A DNA stretch of 64,000 nt from a virus: the IMG/VR virus record IMGVR_UViG_3300044615_000294, positions 1-64,000 of that record, one strand, 5' to 3'. This document shows positions 22,553 through 48,558 of this stretch, piece after piece. How positions within the stretch are numbered: position 1 is the stretch's first letter; each line of letters opens with the position of its first letter. The notes under the pieces were generated by a model. It was not told the DNA's origin and did no database searches. It saw nothing but the letters and a program-made list of their open reading frames with translations. The position numbers were made by a program, and so were the translations under genes.

Positions 22553-22780
22553 ATGCATAGAGCTACTTACTTCCTATATGGAGTTCTATTCTCTCTTACA
22601 GTATATACTGTGTTTTACTCTATAGGAAAGACAGAGAGAAAGACTCCGGTCAAAGGTATAGACCGAGAATATTATTTAGAAGTTTCCCAAGATAGTATTT
22701 GGGTTGAATCTAGACAAGGTCAAATTTATAGTGGTAAATATACAGACTTAGACAGTCTTATTACCATTGATAACTTATAA
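22553..22780 (+). CDS. small early membrane-anchored protein
   Basis: The 75-residue protein begins with a hydrophobic segment (YFLYGVLFSLTVYTVFYSIG, about 6-25), followed by a polar domain with alternating residues (YYLEVSQDSIWVESRQGQIY). It would be anchored in the inner membrane with a small beta-rich periplasmic part. A further early-element-like string lies in its codons at 22605-22620, so an internal start cannot be excluded. The function is unknown. Confidence 0.55.
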   Translation: MHRATYFLYGVLFSLTVYTVFYSIGKTERKTPVKGIDREYYLEVSQDSIWVESRQGQIYSGKYTDLDSLITIDNL

Positions 22781-22784
22781 TTAA

Positions 22785-23160
22785 TTGCAATATAGTTTCT
22801 AACAGCCAGTAATGGTCATCCGAAGGTAGAGCTATAAGTTGAGAAGGATATACTTATCTAGGTATTGCAACCTTGTGAGAGTACAGATGGTGTAGAGATT
22901 GTAGTATAATGGACGCATTATATGAGGCTCTATATTCTATACAGGGGTCAGTATAGTCTTAAATTTTGTAACCTGAAGAGGGTTTTATAATACTAATCCT
23001 AGCAATGAGATACCCCATTGTTAGGTATTAATGCACCATTCCTGATTCCCAAGGTCAGGCAGTTGTAATAGACCAATATCGGGAATAGAAAGGCTTCTCA
23101 ACAGCACACTCTAATCTATTACAACTGAGTGCAGAGGGATAATCAACTTATAGAAACTTT
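22785..23160 (+). ncRNA. large structured RNA candidate (about 370 nt)
   Basis: No frame is supported. The ends pair: 22794-22801 with 23151-23158 (8 bp) and 22832-22842 with 23143-23153 (11 bp, perfect). Inside are a 13-bp helix 23060-23072/23115-23127, a 10-bp hairpin 22998-23007/23016-23025, hairpins 22905-22911/22916-22922, 22937-22942/22951-22956 and 23041-23045/23055-23059, and an 8-bp helix 22785-22792/22863-22870. Some helices compete, so alternative folds or pseudoknots are possible. It lies 1.1 kb before a tRNA gene. It could be a stand-alone RNA or the leader of the next gene. Confidence 0.6.
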
Positions 23161-23184
23161 ATTTATCAACTTAAAATTACACTT

Positions 23185-23529
23185 ATGAACAAAACAGTCC
23201 CTTTTGGTTACCATTCATTTGGTAGTCACACTCTGATTAAACTTAACATGAATCTTACATTTGAAGATGCTGTCGAACTTAGAAAACTATATGATTTCAA
23301 TGTCATGTACTGTAATAGTAAAAAGAAACCACATCTCTATAGAATAGAAGGTGTTATTTCATGGAATAACAGTGATGGAGAAAAATATATTAGTTGGTTT
23401 GAAAAACTAAAAGTTTGCCGAATTAATGCTAAGATGCACAAACTTGCATGTAAGAAACAAGCACTGTTAGATAGTGCATTAGGTATGGAAAATTATATCC
23501 AACCTGTTGATTTAGATTTACCCTTTTAA
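23185..23529 (+). CDS. hypothetical protein with SSB-like C-terminal tip
   Basis: The 114-residue protein begins MNKTVPFGYHSFGSHTLIKL and has a basic middle (YCNSKKKPHLYRIEG; KLKVCRINAKMHKLACKKQA). It ends QPVDLDLPF, a terminal acidic LPF tip like that of the early gene at 20018-20275. I infer possible binding to host or phage partners that recognise SSB tails. It starts 25 bp after the structured RNA, so that RNA may control it. Confidence 0.62.
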   Translation: MNKTVPFGYHSFGSHTLIKLNMNLTFEDAVELRKLYDFNVMYCNSKKKPHLYRIEGVISWNNSDGEKYISWFEKLKVCRINAKMHKLACKKQALLDSALGMENYIQPVDLDLPF

Positions 23530-24280: not shown

Positions 24281-24354
24281 GGTCCTGTAGCTCAGCTGGA
24301 TAGAGCAACTGCCTTCTAAGCAGTAGGTCTTTGGTTCGAATCCAAACAGGATCA
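24281..24354 (+). tRNA. tRNA-Arg (anticodon UCU)
   Basis: A full cloverleaf can be drawn: acceptor stem GGTCCTG/CAGGATC (one G-T pair), D-arm GCTC/GAGC, anticodon stem ACTGC/GCAGT with loop CTTCTAA (anticodon TCT at 24315-24317), T-arm TTTGG-TTCGAAT-CCAAA and discriminator A. CCA is not encoded. It would read AGA, which is frequent in these genes. Confidence 0.93.
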
Positions 24355-24378
24355 CTGTTATTAACCAAAATCACTTAT

Positions 24379-42494: not shown

Positions 42495-42922
42495 TGATTT
42501 TAAGTAGAGATGAAGTTAAAAATTTAGTAAATATGATGAAGTCATCAGATAAAGAGAATCACTATCTGGTGTATAAAGTTTTAGAAGATTTAGATTTAGA
42601 AACAAATCTTGGAGAAGTACTAGTTATTTTTAGATATGGTAACTATAGGTTAGATGAGTGGGAAGAGGATTGTCCAAAGGTTTATGATTTTATAATAAAT
42701 AAACTACATGATTACAATGGTGGATGGGATTCAAAACCTACTACAAGTGATATCTTATCATTACTGACCAAGAATAATGCTTCTAAAGATTCTATAGAAT
42801 TGTTTCTAGAGTACTTTATGATGAATCTTGGTAGAATGTTGGACAATATGGGATATCCAACAGACAAGTTTGAATTAACAGTTAAATTAAAAGACAATGG
42901 ACAAACAGCAAAGTCTAAGTAA
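42494..42922 (+). CDS. hypothetical protein
   Basis: A 142-residue acidic helical protein (MILSRDEVKNLVNMMKSSDK...), with YHLVYKVLEDLDL-like helices and DCPKVYDFIINKLHDYNGGW in the centre. It overlaps the VWA-like gene by 26 bases. No family is recognised; the link to the downstream pair is by position only. Confidence 0.6.
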   Translation: MILSRDEVKNLVNMMKSSDKENHYLVYKVLEDLDLETNLGEVLVIFRYGNYRLDEWEEDCPKVYDFIINKLHDYNGGWDSKPTTSDILSLLTKNNASKDSIELFLEYFMMNLGRMLDNMGYPTDKFELTVKLKDNGQTAKSK

Positions 42923-44075
42923 AATTAGTAAAGAGCTAATGTTGAGAGAGCCCTATTATGGGTTCTTTCTTATTATGCTCAACAAAATGTGGAGAAAAGA
43001 TCTTCCTACGGCAGGTGTGAGTAAGAATGGTATCAACTATCAGTTGGCTATCAATGAGGAGTTTTGGACAAGTCTTAGTGAGAAGCATCAAATGGGATTG
43101 CTTAAGCATGAGTTATTGCATATTGCTTTTGGACATTTAGTGAGTTTTGGTTCTTTTAGAAACAAGAAACTTGCTAATGTTGCAATGGACATGGAGATCA
43201 ATCAGTATATTGATCCAGAATATTTGCCAGATGGAGGTATAGATATAAATAACTATGAAGATCTTGATCTTGATATTAAAGCAGGTTGTAGATATTATTA
43301 TGATAAACTACAACAGCTTAAAGATGAGAAAGACAAGAACGGTACATGTGGAAATGAGGAGATGGATAAGTTGCTAGACAACATAGACAATGGAGATGTT
43401 CCTGATCATAGTACATGGGAAGAGTTTGATGATCTTAGTGAAGCTGAGAAAAAACTAATTGAGAAGCAAATTCAAAAAGTTTTAGCAGATGCTAAAGAAC
43501 AAACTATTAAGAAGCGGGGGAATGTTCCAGGTGAGATAGAAGGTGTTATAATTATTGAAGAAATAGTTAAACCTAAATTTGACTGGAGAAGTTATGTCAG
43601 AAGATTTTCTGGTACAAGTACTAAAGTATTTACCAAGAAGATTAGAAGAAAAGAGAATAGAAGGTATGATGAAAATCCTGGCCTTAAAATTAAAATGAAA
43701 CAGCATATGTTGTTGGCCATTGATACTTCAGGTTCTGTAAGTGATGCAGAGTTAAATGAATTTATGAATGAGATACACCATATCTATAAAGCTGGAGTAG
43801 ATATTACAATAGTTCAATGTGACACAAGTATTAATTCTATAGAAGAATACAAAGGTAAGAATGAACTAAATGTAAAAGGTAGAGGTGGGACTGAGTTTGA
43901 TCCAGTTCTAGATTATTATAATGCTAACCAAAAGAAATATACAAGCCTGGTGTATTTTACTGACGGAGAGTGTTATACATCTGTAAAGCCAAAAGGACGT
44001 ATCCTGTGGGTTTTGTCAGAGAGATCAAGTATGAATGAAAGTTTACCAGGTCATGTAATTAAATTAGAACTATAA
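42897..44075 (+). CDS. DUF2201-type metallopeptidase-like and VWA protein
   Basis: The 392-residue protein has an N-terminal zinc-peptidase-like site HELLHIAFGH (HExxH 71-75), a central acidic linker, and a C-terminal VWA domain with the MIDAS motif LLAIDTSGSVSD (276-280) and later GRGGTEFDPV and YFTDGECY. In bacteria DUF2201/VWA proteins pair with MoxR ATPases, as here with the next gene. The pair would remodel or activate a target complex; the target is unknown. Confidence 0.8.
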   Translation: MDKQQSLSKISKELMLREPYYGFFLIMLNKMWRKDLPTAGVSKNGINYQLAINEEFWTSLSEKHQMGLLKHELLHIAFGHLVSFGSFRNKKLANVAMDMEINQYIDPEYLPDGGIDINNYEDLDLDIKAGCRYYYDKLQQLKDEKDKNGTCGNEEMDKLLDNIDNGDVPDHSTWEEFDDLSEAEKKLIEKQIQKVLADAKEQTIKKRGNVPGEIEGVIIIEEIVKPKFDWRSYVRRFSGTSTKVFTKKIRRKENRRYDENPGLKIKMKQHMLLAIDTSGSVSDAELNEFMNEIHHIYKAGVDITIVQCDTSINSIEEYKGKNELNVKGRGGTEFDPVLDYYNANQKKYTSLVYFTDGECYTSVKPKGRILWVLSERSSMNESLPGHVIKLEL

Positions 44076-44086
44076 AAAGAAAAACT

Positions 44087-45256
44087 ATGAGCACAGTACA
44101 ATTAAACGTAGAAGAGTTAAAAGGATTTATCCGCCATATGGTTGCAAACAACCAGTATATCCAAAGCCAAGGAAAAGTTCCAGTGGCAATTAATATTGAA
44201 GGTGATGCCGGTCTTGGTAAGACTTCAGCTATCATGCAGTTAGGTAAAGAACTTGACATGGATGTAGTAAAGCTTAATTTATCTCAGATAGAAGAATTAG
44301 GTGACTTAGTTGGTTTTCCTGTTAAAGAATTCTTGGTAAGAAATCAAGAAGGTAAAGAGCGTTGGATAAATGAAGCTCAGATTCAAGGAGCTCTTAATGC
44401 TAAGTTTACTGTTGTAGATAAGAGAATGGCTCATGCTGCTCCAGAGTGGATTCAAGGTAAAGGTGAAGGTGGTTTCTTGGTATTGGATGACTATACTCGT
44501 GCAGACCATAGATTTATGCAAGCCACTATGGAGATCTTAGATAGACAAGAATATGTTTCTTGGAAGCTACCTAAGAACTGGCACGTAATCTTAACCACTA
44601 ATCCAGACAATGGTGACTATAATGTTACTTCTTTGGATGTTGCTCAGAAGACCAGATTTATTTCTGTAGAGATGAAGTATGATGTTAATGTGTGGGGTAA
44701 ATGGGCTGAGACAGCAGGAATAGATGGTAGATGTATTAACTTTATGTTGATGCACCCAGAGCTTGTAACTCAAAGAGTTAATCCAAGAGCTATTACTACG
44801 TTCTTTAATGCTATCAGTTCTATTCCAAAGTTTGAAGATAATCTTCCACTAATCCAAATGATTGGTGAAGGTTCTGTTGGTGCTGACTTTAGTTCTATGT
44901 TTACTATGTTTATTAACAATAAACTAGATAAGATTATCTCTCCGGATGATATTCTTAACAAGGATGAAGCATATGTAATGGGAGCTTTGACAAGTGCAGT
45001 TGGTAAAGATGATGATTTCAGGGCAGATATTTCAAGTGTAATTGCAACCAGATTGGTTAATTATTCACTTGTTATGGCTGAGAAAGGTTCTGTTGCTGCA
45101 CCTATTATTGACAGATTAGCTAAGCTTACTACAGACTGTGAAGCATTTACAAATGACTTGAGATATTATATGATCAAAGAGATTGTAAATGGAAACAAGG
45201 TGAAGTTTGCTAAACTCATGCAGAATACTAATGTGGTGAAGATGGCTATCAGCTAA
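44087..45256 (+). CDS. MoxR-like AAA+ ATPase
   Basis: The 389-residue protein has Walker A INIEGDAGLGKTSAIM (39-46), Walker B GGFLVLDDYTRAD (about 130-140), and a sensor-1-like HVILTTNPDNG, characteristic of MoxR-type AAA+ proteins. It forms a hexamer that works with a VWA partner, encoded directly upstream. The operon-like spacing (11 bp) supports this. Its natural substrate in the phage cycle is unknown. Confidence 0.83.
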   Translation: MSTVQLNVEELKGFIRHMVANNQYIQSQGKVPVAINIEGDAGLGKTSAIMQLGKELDMDVVKLNLSQIEELGDLVGFPVKEFLVRNQEGKERWINEAQIQGALNAKFTVVDKRMAHAAPEWIQGKGEGGFLVLDDYTRADHRFMQATMEILDRQEYVSWKLPKNWHVILTTNPDNGDYNVTSLDVAQKTRFISVEMKYDVNVWGKWAETAGIDGRCINFMLMHPELVTQRVNPRAITTFFNAISSIPKFEDNLPLIQMIGEGSVGADFSSMFTMFINNKLDKIISPDDILNKDEAYVMGALTSAVGKDDDFRADISSVIATRLVNYSLVMAEKGSVAAPIIDRLAKLTTDCEAFTNDLRYYMIKEIVNGNKVKFAKLMQNTNVVKMAIS

Positions 45257-45315
45257 AACAGTGATAGAACATTTACCCCTTTAATCAAACATCAAACAAA
45301 TTAATAACTAAGATG

Positions 45316-45335
45316 GGGGAAGGTAATGCTTCCCC
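45316..45335 (+). terminator. hairpin, probable terminator
   Basis: GGGGAAG (45316-45322) pairs with CTTCCCC (45329-45335) over GTAATG. The following T content is modest (TATTCTTTAT). It overlaps an ATG at 45313 that I reject as a gene start. Confidence 0.6.
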
Positions 45336-45354
45336 TATTCTTTATAAAACAAGT

Positions 45355-46605
45355 ATGGAAAAATACGTTCATATAGAATTACATGGTGAGAATCACCATA
45401 GTCATATTAGTGGATTCAATGTAAAAGTTATAGAAGCATTAGGAACAGATGTTCCGGATTTTGTAAATTCAAAAGGATATGTTCCTAAACAAGGAGACAT
45501 GATATATTTATTACCTGGCGTAAATATTCCCCGGGTAAAACTAAAAGATTTAGCTTTAAATCTTGGTATTAGAGTTGTCAGAGATCCAGAGAAAGCCAAT
45601 ATTATATTCAGTGGTAAGAGCAGTATGGGCAAGATGACAGGTTCTAGTTGGTATTATATTGCAGATGCAGAACTTATTCTTAATCGTGTTAAAGAAATTT
45701 GTGATGACGGGTATTATATTGAGAAATTAGAAACAGCTATTGAAGGATCAGGTGCTACTAAAATTTGTTCAGATTGGTCAGACATGAGAAATTGTTTAGC
45801 AAGTAATCATAGTCACTATGACAGTGGTTATATCTATGCTGTTGAAGAAGACCATGCAGATACATATAATGCAATGCAAGGTAAACCAATTTATAATGAG
45901 ACAGAGTTAATTACTAATATCAATGGTGATGACTCTACTATAATAGATGAAGAAGTTTTTCAGCAATTGAAAAATATGTTTGAGAGCTCAGACAGTGACA
46001 ATCATATTTTAGCTATGGAGATTATGGCAAACTCTCATTATGAGAAGAGTGTTCTTTATCTGCAAATGCTATTGAGCAATTATTGTTATCAGATCAGTAA
46101 CTCTCATACTAAGAGTCATGTGAACTTTAAATCAATGCTTAGTTATTTTAATTGGATTCCAAGAAATATTGGTAACAGAAATGCAGAGAAGATTGTTGAG
46201 ATCATTGATGAGAAAGGTTTACTTACTGTAGATATGATAAAGAGATTGTATAAAGAATATACTCATTCTATTCATGGGAATATTAATTATAGTGATGTAT
46301 TTGAGGCTAAAGAGATTACTATCAAACAAGAGTATCTTGATAAGCTTAATCTATCTTCTCTAAATTTAATTAATCCTGAGCCTGAAGAAAATCTTGAGGT
46401 CACAGATCCGGTGGATGAAATAGTTACAGATGAACTTATAGAAGCTGCATTAACTAATATTAACCGCAATGAACTCAAGTCAGAGTTAATAACTCTTGAA
46501 GAAGAAATATTAGCTGAAAAAGATTTGGCCACTTTTAAAGAAGAAGAATCAAATAACAATCAAATAGAAGAAACAAATGACGGGAATGACCTTGACTGGT
46601 TCTGA
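45355..46605 (+). CDS. conserved hypothetical protein
   Basis: I use ATG 45355, because the earlier ATG falls inside a terminator hairpin. The 416-residue protein (MEKYVHIELHGENHHSHISG...) has an alpha/beta N-terminal half with YLLPGVNIPRVKLKDLALNL and DPEKANIIFSGKSSMGKM, and an acidic C-terminus (NLEVTDPVDEIVTDELIEAA). It overlaps the exonuclease gene by 29 bases and may partner it. No motif identifies a function. Confidence 0.6.
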   Translation: MEKYVHIELHGENHHSHISGFNVKVIEALGTDVPDFVNSKGYVPKQGDMIYLLPGVNIPRVKLKDLALNLGIRVVRDPEKANIIFSGKSSMGKMTGSSWYYIADAELILNRVKEICDDGYYIEKLETAIEGSGATKICSDWSDMRNCLASNHSHYDSGYIYAVEEDHADTYNAMQGKPIYNETELITNINGDDSTIIDEEVFQQLKNMFESSDSDNHILAMEIMANSHYEKSVLYLQMLLSNYCYQISNSHTKSHVNFKSMLSYFNWIPRNIGNRNAEKIVEIIDEKGLLTVDMIKRLYKEYTHSIHGNINYSDVFEAKEITIKQEYLDKLNLSSLNLINPEPEENLEVTDPVDEIVTDELIEAALTNINRNELKSELITLEEEILAEKDLATFKEEESNNNQIEETNDGNDLDWF

Positions 46606-47596
46606 GGAACTAGAGAAGTTTTATAAAGAGAAGTTTTATTTCAGCTATAGTAGTCTGAGTAAACTTCTTTATTCTCCCGTGGCATTCTATAATCATTATG
46701 TGCTCAAGAAGAAAGAAGACATTGTGGGACCCCATCTGGTAGCAGGTAGGGTTCTGCACTGTCTCTTATTTGAAGAGGATAAGTATGATGATTATTTTAC
46801 AAGCCTTCCGGGAAAACTACCAACTGATAGTCAGAAAAAAATTATTGATAATATTTTCAAGATACACTTGTCAGTAGAAAATAATACATTATCTTTGGAA
46901 GACTATTCAGCAGATATACTCACAGAGCTACTCACAGCTAATCTTTATCAGACACTCAAGACAGACCAACAGAGACTTGATAAAATACTCACAGAAGAAA
47001 ACAAAAATTACTTTAAGTTCTTAAAAGAAAGTCAAGACAAACTAGTAGTTGATGAACCTACTCTAAGTGGCTGTAGAGAAGGTGTTATGGTTCTAAAATC
47101 CAATCCGGAAATTAGACAGCTACTACAACTTGACAGGACAGAGGAAGATACTCATCTAGAAGTTTACAGTGAGTTGCTTGTAAATATAGATGTAGATTAT
47201 CTACCTTATGGTTTTAAGGGAATTATAGATAATCTTGTGATAGATAAAGAATCTAAGACAGTCTTTATTAATGACCTTAAGACAACGGGTAAATCTCTTT
47301 TAGAATTCCCGGACTCTGTGCAGTATTACAAGTATTGGTTACAAGCCGTGGTATATGAGAAACTTGTGTTTCATAAATTTCTAAAAGACTTACCTGATCT
47401 GGATGAGTGGAAATTGTATTTTACATTTATTGTAATAGACAAGTACAACCAAGCTTATCCATTCCAAGTCTCAGGAGAGACAATGGCCATATGGCAACAA
47501 GACTTTGATGACATAATGGATATGGCAAAGTATCATTATGAAAGCAAAGACTTTACACTGCCATATGATTTAATTATGGGTAATGTAAAATTGTAG
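46577..47596 (+). CDS. PD-(D/E)XK exonuclease
   Basis: The 339-residue protein begins with a helical domain including GRVLHCLLFE (57-66), then has GFKGIIDNLVID and FINDLKTTGKS, the D...DxK site, followed by QYYKYWLQAVVYE, which matches the RecB-like Q-x-x-x-Y helix. It is a YqaJ/exodeoxyribonuclease VIII-like nuclease that would resect DNA for Sak4-type recombination. The first ATG is at 46577; ATG at 46586 is an alternative. Confidence 0.8.
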   Translation: MTGMTLTGSEELEKFYKEKFYFSYSSLSKLLYSPVAFYNHYVLKKKEDIVGPHLVAGRVLHCLLFEEDKYDDYFTSLPGKLPTDSQKKIIDNIFKIHLSVENNTLSLEDYSADILTELLTANLYQTLKTDQQRLDKILTEENKNYFKFLKESQDKLVVDEPTLSGCREGVMVLKSNPEIRQLLQLDRTEEDTHLEVYSELLVNIDVDYLPYGFKGIIDNLVIDKESKTVFINDLKTTGKSLLEFPDSVQYYKYWLQAVVYEKLVFHKFLKDLPDLDEWKLYFTFIVIDKYNQAYPFQVSGETMAIWQQDFDDIMDMAKYHYESKDFTLPYDLIMGNVKL

Positions 47597-47601
47597 AAAT
47601 T

Positions 47602-48168
47602 ATGGTAATTAATGCACTGTATAGTAAATACTTTCAAAAGTCCAAGATATTCTTATATCCGCTCTTGGGCATTAAAAGGGGGACAAGTGTAACTCCAGAT
47701 GAGACTTATCTCAGTTGGAATGAAAAATATTCTCCCGAGGATATGAAGTTGGTGTGTGTTTATAAAACAAGAACAGATTCAGAGTATATAAACTTTGAAG
47801 CTAATGTTTTACTTAAGCACAACAGATTATATGATTATGTGAAAGTTAATGAGTCAAGCAGTGTATTTATATTTGATTTTTCAGATCTTAAAAATGATTG
47901 GGATTATTTCTCTAGCGGAAAATATAGTAAGCTAGACAATAAGATCAAAAACAAAATCTTAGATTTCTTTGAGAAGAACAGCGGTAATTATGTTTATGTC
48001 CACAGCTTTTTGTATCCAAATAAATGGTATCAAAGATATGCTGAGTTATTAAATGTAAGTAAAGATCTGCTAGAAGAAGTTGGTGAGTTGTGTGATATAC
48101 CAGATTTAGATAAAGAAAATTTACTAATTATGGTTGCAGATTTGGAAAATATAAGAATTCTAGAGTAA
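47602..48168 (+). CDS. hypothetical protein
   Basis: The 188-residue protein (MVINALYSKYFQKSKIFLYP...) is soluble, with aromatic-rich strands and a Lys/Asn-rich middle (NDWDYFSSGKYSKLDNKIKN). It ends with an acidic helical tail. It lies 5 bp after the exonuclease gene. No family is recognised. Confidence 0.58.
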   Translation: MVINALYSKYFQKSKIFLYPLLGIKRGTSVTPDETYLSWNEKYSPEDMKLVCVYKTRTDSEYINFEANVLLKHNRLYDYVKVNESSSVFIFDFSDLKNDWDYFSSGKYSKLDNKIKNKILDFFEKNSGNYVYVHSFLYPNKWYQRYAELLNVSKDLLEEVGELCDIPDLDKENLLIMVADLENIRILE

Positions 48169-48195
48169 ATTTGTAATAATTAAAAAACCAAAAAA

Positions 48196-48558
48196 ATGAG
48201 TGAAAAATCAATGATGCTAGTTCAATCAAGCTGGCAAGAAAACCAAACCTTTAGACTTATCCCTATCACGGATAATTGTCCTTATGTAGAATGTATCTTT
48301 GATCCAGGTACAAAAGTATTTGTTATTATCTCTAAAACTACAAAGCAGAGTTTACACATGCTTCCTAAGTTAGATGATTACGGACAAGTAATTACTGGTT
48401 CAAAAGGAACTAAACAAGACAGACATAAGATTGAAGTATTTCAGGAGTTCTATATTGAGAATGCTGAAGCTATCACAGAGATAGTAGAGCATTTTGCAAT
48501 TAACGCCAAGAAATTTAACTACAAGTCTTTCATGGCTGAAGAAACAAAATCTAAGTAA
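48196..48558 (+). CDS. conserved hypothetical protein
   Basis: The 120-residue protein (MSEKSMMLVQSSWQENQTFR...) is beta-rich in its first half (VECIFDPGTKVFVIISKTTK) and helical in its second. It is followed by a good terminator and precedes PolB, so it may be a small replication accessory. It has a clear A-rich leader. No motif is recognised. Confidence 0.6.
   Translation: MSEKSMMLVQSSWQENQTFRLIPITDNCPYVECIFDPGTKVFVIISKTTKQSLHMLPKLDDYGQVITGSKGTKQDRHKIEVFQEFYIENAEAITEIVEHFAINAKKFNYKSFMAEETKSK

Follow-up and report, generated by a model that had tools for sequence, protein, structure and literature searches.

A divergent twister-type ribozyme candidate in a chain of RNA modules ahead of a small phage gene

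Anatomy of a non-coding stretch between two small phage genes

The window (the whole stretch of DNA that was analysed, 64,000 nucleotides) is part of a 91,341-base virus record whose large terminase subunit is distantly related, at about 23-26% identity, to homologues in crAss-like gut phages and Flavobacterium phages. The region of interest lies between two small genes and comprises the following features:

22785-23160, plus strand: non-coding stretch, with a 75-aa ORF ending at 22780 as its 5' neighbour and a 114-aa ORF from 23185 as its 3' neighbour
22785..22870, plus strand: module Z, with TTGCAATA/TATTGCAA as its closing stem and a length of 86 nt; near-identical copies occur in relatives
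22865..22884, plus strand: 3' remnant of module A, TTGCAACCTTGTGAGAGTAC, the 5' half TACTCTCATCCAAGCAGG being absent from the window
about 22885..23028, plus strand: module M3, several hairpins, with compensatory changes in contigs L228 and L119
22998..23025, plus strand: hairpin CCTAGCAATG..CATTGTTAGG, its 3' end lying 4 nt from the predicted cut, with compensated changes in L119
23026..23141, plus strand: module B, putatively twister-type from covariation in 148 listed copies and comparison with the twister core
23144-23183: leader CAACTTATAGAAACTT, preceding the 114-aa ORF
23185..23529, plus strand: downstream gene (114-aa ORF), starting 46 nt past the GAGGG of module B, with homologues in 11 contigs
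24281-24355: tRNA-Arg, downstream of the stretch

An original prediction described this stretch as a large structured RNA without a plausible reading frame, upstream of a tRNA gene and without a match to RNase P, tmRNA or group I introns. Indeed, no ORF of at least 40 aa was found between 22780 and 23185, the tRNA gene is present, and an Rfam search of the stretch gave no match. A decayed gene was ruled out by the absence of an ORF together with the conservation of the pieces as RNA. Two long helices noted at the outset are both exact, and the 13-bp helix (23060-23072/23115-23127) is conserved in type. The 11-bp helix (22832-22842/23143-23153) had been proposed to close the ends, but it is not conserved: its 3' arm is missing from the nearest relative, L002, which is 99.1% identical over 443 nt, and belongs to a leader-like sequence found 5' of other genes in relatives.

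For the plus strand the fold energy is -102.2 kcal/mol (z = -2.75 versus shuffles, with 1/100 shuffles as good), and the minus strand has a z of -3.53. Because both strands score low, fold energy cannot choose between them, and on its own it would have been insufficient to demonstrate a functional RNA. Pairing density had also been described as far above the surroundings, which was not borne out by a sliding fold scan of the whole window on both strands. Relative to the composition trend, the stretch and its neighbours lie only about 0.7-1.1 s.d. below, and many lower stretches occur elsewhere, so that the pairing is unexceptional for this genome.

We fetched the loci of relatives via two neighbouring proteins and compared contigs from dozens of related phages. 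In them, short parts of the stretch occur in several copies, apart from each other and in differing order and with variable spacing, which marks the boundaries of the modules. Judged from these sequences, a series of distinct, folded RNA modules occupies the space between the two small phage genes. The first proposal, a single ornate RNA some 370 nt long, would fit the unbroken non-coding sequence and its end-to-end fold, but the separateness of the modules, their other spacings in relatives and the loss of the 11-bp closing helix in L002 leave it with hardly any probability. What stands of that proposal is a conserved, structured RNA region with compensatory changes in sister phages. Such an anatomy leads one to expect a cut at 23029/23030 and not a discrete 370-nt transcript.

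Module Z is 100% identical in L025, L023 and L187 and 98.9% identical in L002, after which different sequences follow. In L025, Z precedes a complete module A, in which a variable segment separates the 5' motif TACTCTCATCCAAGCAGG from the 3' motif CAAGGRTTGCAACCTTGTGAGAGTA. The window keeps the 3' end of module A alone, with Z and A as if joined at TTGCAA. Module M3 stands by itself directly upstream of a gene in L228, and its compensatory changes include TAATG/CATTA to TGATG/CATCA and TATAC/GTATA to TTTAC/GTAAA. M3 also contains a hammerhead-like CUGAAGA, but a hammerhead was rejected, no GAAA partner being seen. Within the whole 91,341-base record there is one exact match to the B core and one module A remnant. 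Searches of phage isolates gave no matches to the stretch and six, at chance level only, to the region of modules A and B in L012. Among cellular genomes, one contig of an Alphaproteobacteria metagenome-assembled genome (MAG) matched.

Module B and the twister ribozymes

Module B has the following parts, all on the plus strand:

23026-23028/23139-23141: P1, three A-U pairs
23029-23031: UAA
23029..23030: predicted cleavage site U|A, placed by the U-A cut site of twister (PMC5408937)
23032-23035/23130-23133: P2
23036-23037 (CC) with 23053-23054 (GG): T2
23041-23045/23055-23059: P4
23048-23050 (CCC) with 23136-23138 (GGG): T1
23060-23072/23115-23127: P5, a hypervariable extra hairpin
23134-23138: GAGGG, the 3' side of L1

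Pattern scans of viral contigs yielded at least about 150 distinct copies of module B, 148 of which were aligned; all counts were obtained with pattern searches and scripts. The invariant letters are, in order, UAA, UGCA, P4 with the loop uUCCCAAgg, UGCA and GAGGG. P4 is paired in 99-100% of the 148 listed copies versus 63-84% after shuffling, a control that ignores shared ancestry. Individual P4 positions show as many as four kinds of Watson-Crick pair, and P4 has many fully complementary variants. P1, P2 and P5 also covary in the listed copies, with changes on both sides, and compensatory changes in T1 were found in L039, L161, L187 and L058. The conservation of P2, T2 and L4 is partly due to selection, since the scan pattern fixed parts of them. 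Outside the pattern, and among the matches listed, UAA is present in 128/133 copies and exact GAGTGCAGAGGG in 125 of 132. GAGGG, the part of L1 opposite the predicted cut site in UAA, is present in 126/130 listed copies. T2 is complementary as CC/GG in nearly all listed copies, with a few UC/GG or UC/GA; position 36 shows covariation with the P2 side as well, and the pair differs from the conserved GC. Identical P5 inserts occur with different P4 stems in three sets of contigs (L131, L193 and L264; L148, L159 and L199; L023, L091 and L268), which suggests that recombination shuffles the pieces.

The order and letters of module B equal those of a published twister sequence (PMC12236469) and the structural account of twister (PMC5408937). 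In that structure, P2 has 4 bp, a dinucleotide of L2 pairs with two bulged L4 nucleotides, and T1 comprises three Watson-Crick pairs; cleavage occurs at U-A, and UAA and the first G of GAGGG are tied to catalysis (PMC5408937). Module B has P1, P2 (4 bp) and P4 in twister order, although P1 of the window has only three pairs, and it has the L4 CCCAA and T1 (CCC with GGG), the L4 letters having belonged to the scan pattern. Specifically, it shares with twister types P1 and P5 (RF03160, RF02684; PMC5408937) the succession of P1, UAA, a 4-bp P2, a putative T2 dinucleotide, P4 with an L4 UCCCAA, P2', GAGGG and P1', as well as the T1 pseudoknot, an optional P5 at the same place and the predicted U-A cut site. 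It differs in having CC/GG for GC/GC in T2, an extra U in L4 and a long hypervariable P5, in going undetected by Rfam models, and in sitting in the small-gene leaders of this phage lineage.

The Rfam twister models gave no match to module B in its own or related records, compact copies included. The Rfam consensus carries UAAUGC, UCcCAA and GCAGAGgG as module B does. T2 CC/GG, the extra U of L4 and the P5 insert may account for the failure of the models. A scan in which the letters of T2 were left free recovered L301, which reads UAA-UGCA-GC...TCCCAA-GC...UGCA-GAGGG. It has the same UAAUGCA, P2 and UGCAGAGGG as module B but a T2 of GC/GC, and it scores 37.3 bits to Rfam Twister-P5, just below the cut-off of 37.6. 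Elsewhere, the record of L301 scores up to 52.3 bits to twister-P1, which is below the cut-off of that family. This 77-kb virus record (G006) holds five twister-P1 matches within 6 kb, at 42510-48469, with scores of 20.8-52.3 bits, which makes it a candidate twister cluster in a different phage.

Given these comparisons, we read module B as a twister-type self-cleaving ribozyme of type P1, carried in a small phage gene's leader behind other structured modules and predicted to cut at U23029|A23030, with a probability of roughly 0.8. This reading is argued for by the twister core and its covariation, the intergenic position, the hairpins enriched just 5' of the predicted cut and the hatchets in the same regions of relatives. 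Counting against it are the failure of the Rfam twister models to match module B, the CC/GG of T2 and the large distance of half of the listed copies from the next ATG. In addition, P1 of the window consists of three A-U pairs and the adjacent hairpin may compete with it, so this copy could be slow. Alternatively, the twister scaffold could have lost self-cutting and survive in mRNA leaders for its stability as a 5' structure or for binding a protein. The weak P1 of the window and a T2 unlike the conserved GC/GC would suit such a fold, which we nevertheless think unlikely: the UAA and first G of GAGGG are kept in nearly all listed copies, and P1, which is important for the cut, covaries. As current models miss this T2 variant, a candidate twister subgroup, the number of ribozymes in viromes is probably underestimated.

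Module A and other structured RNAs in related phages

Only a remnant of module A lies in the window, and a complete copy (L025:3497-3608) and about 110 others were found in relatives. Its closing stem covaries, as in TACTCTCA/TGAGAGTA, AACTCTCA/TGAGAGTT, TACTCTTG/CAAGAGTA and TGTTCTTG/CAAGAACA. It includes a hairpin, CAAGG-RUUGCAA-CCUUG, and a loop that probably pairs with the GCA of the 5' motif; one loop-loop change is compensated in L160 and L129. Module A is absent from Rfam, and the alignments point to a conserved, covarying RNA that is new to that database. Modules A and M3 may both be further new elements.

Hatchet ribozymes (RF02678) gave no match in the window, and related contigs contain them at 78-83 bits, above the curated cut-off (L012:2169-2305, L089:3166-3303, L003:258-395 and L094:5635-5767). 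They lie 113-353 nt from the next ORF. These hatchets occupy the same regions of relatives as module B; their fold and core differ from those of module B. Hatchets usually carry a hairpin, P0, just 5' of the cut, and module B copies often have one before their predicted cut; the 2015 paper describing them considered its role not clear and reported no hatchet in any completely sequenced organism (PMC4604424). The theta ribozymes of gut phages (PMC10879173) are likewise small and self-cleaving, occur in phages of Bacteroidota and Bacillota, and have been proposed to process transcripts. Unlike the putatively twister-type module B, which stands before protein genes, they have an HDV-like fold and cut beside the 3' ends of tRNAs.

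GOLLD (RF02032; PMC12286853) also had no match in the window. Sub-threshold matches to it (cut-off 150) end a few bases 5' of module B in L056:4466-4860 (100.8 bits) and L039:3635-4027 (88 bits). GOLLD is much larger than module B, which is a separate module.

Position before genes and predicted transcript processing

Well over 100 contigs of related phages carry close relatives of module B immediately 5' of small genes. Among the matches listed, 146/150 copies are intergenic and nearly always on the strand of the next gene. Module A occupies the same place before genes, with 106 of 110 copies intergenic and, nearly always, the strand of the next gene. Measured from the end of a module to the following ATG, the shortest distances concentrate around 27-60 nt, a range that includes the 46 nt of the window's module B. 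Median distances are 118 nt for module B, with half of the listed copies farther away, and 258 nt for module A. These larger medians reflect, in the examples read, that a further module often follows.

The leader position and the succession of several modules would also suit a riboswitch, attenuator or antiterminator that controls the downstream gene and merely resembles twister. We consider this very unlikely, as a full twister core with compensated T1 would be unexpected in an unrelated RNA, annotated hatchet ribozymes occur in the same regions of relatives, and the genes downstream of module B are varied.

The 42 nt before the predicted cut of module B have a mean fold z of -1.52, versus about -0.6 in control stretches. 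The contrast is weaker 5' of module A (-1.44 versus about -0.9). Under the preferred reading of module B as a self-cleaving ribozyme, it would fold during transcription through two pseudoknots and cleave at U23029|A23030. Such a cut would leave the upstream RNA with a terminal hairpin and a 2',3'-cyclic phosphate. The downstream mRNA would carry a 5'-hydroxyl followed by the compact body of the ribozyme, with about 155 nt separating this new 5' end from the start codon. RNA ends bearing a 5'-hydroxyl resist monophosphate-dependent decay. If the region is transcribed as long units, the ribozymes would split early phage transcripts, and the folding of the new ends would make the resulting pieces less accessible to exonucleases. 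That many related phages carry such modules at the same place makes the division of transcripts their likely use.

The clustering of ribozymes near one another and near phage genes has been described as having an unknown reason (PMC10085705). The many twister-type copies before genes, often with a hairpin at the predicted cut and with hatchets in the same regions, suggest a concrete role, namely making folded mRNA ends. More speculatively, modules A, M3 and perhaps Z could be unrecognised classes of self-cleaving ribozyme found at the same leader position as twister and hatchet. All of these would then make up a system of interchangeable ribozymes, each behind a protective hairpin, cutting phage transcripts into stable mRNAs; we regard this extension as possible but doubtful.

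Two further sequences recur in these leaders. The leader CAACTTATAGAAACTT is found in 35 distinct contexts in relatives and is perhaps a promoter or translation signal. A hairpin, GAGCATG..AAACTGCTC, recurs just 5' of A and B modules and of genes in L003, L009, L092, L118 and others, with 87 distinct flanks.
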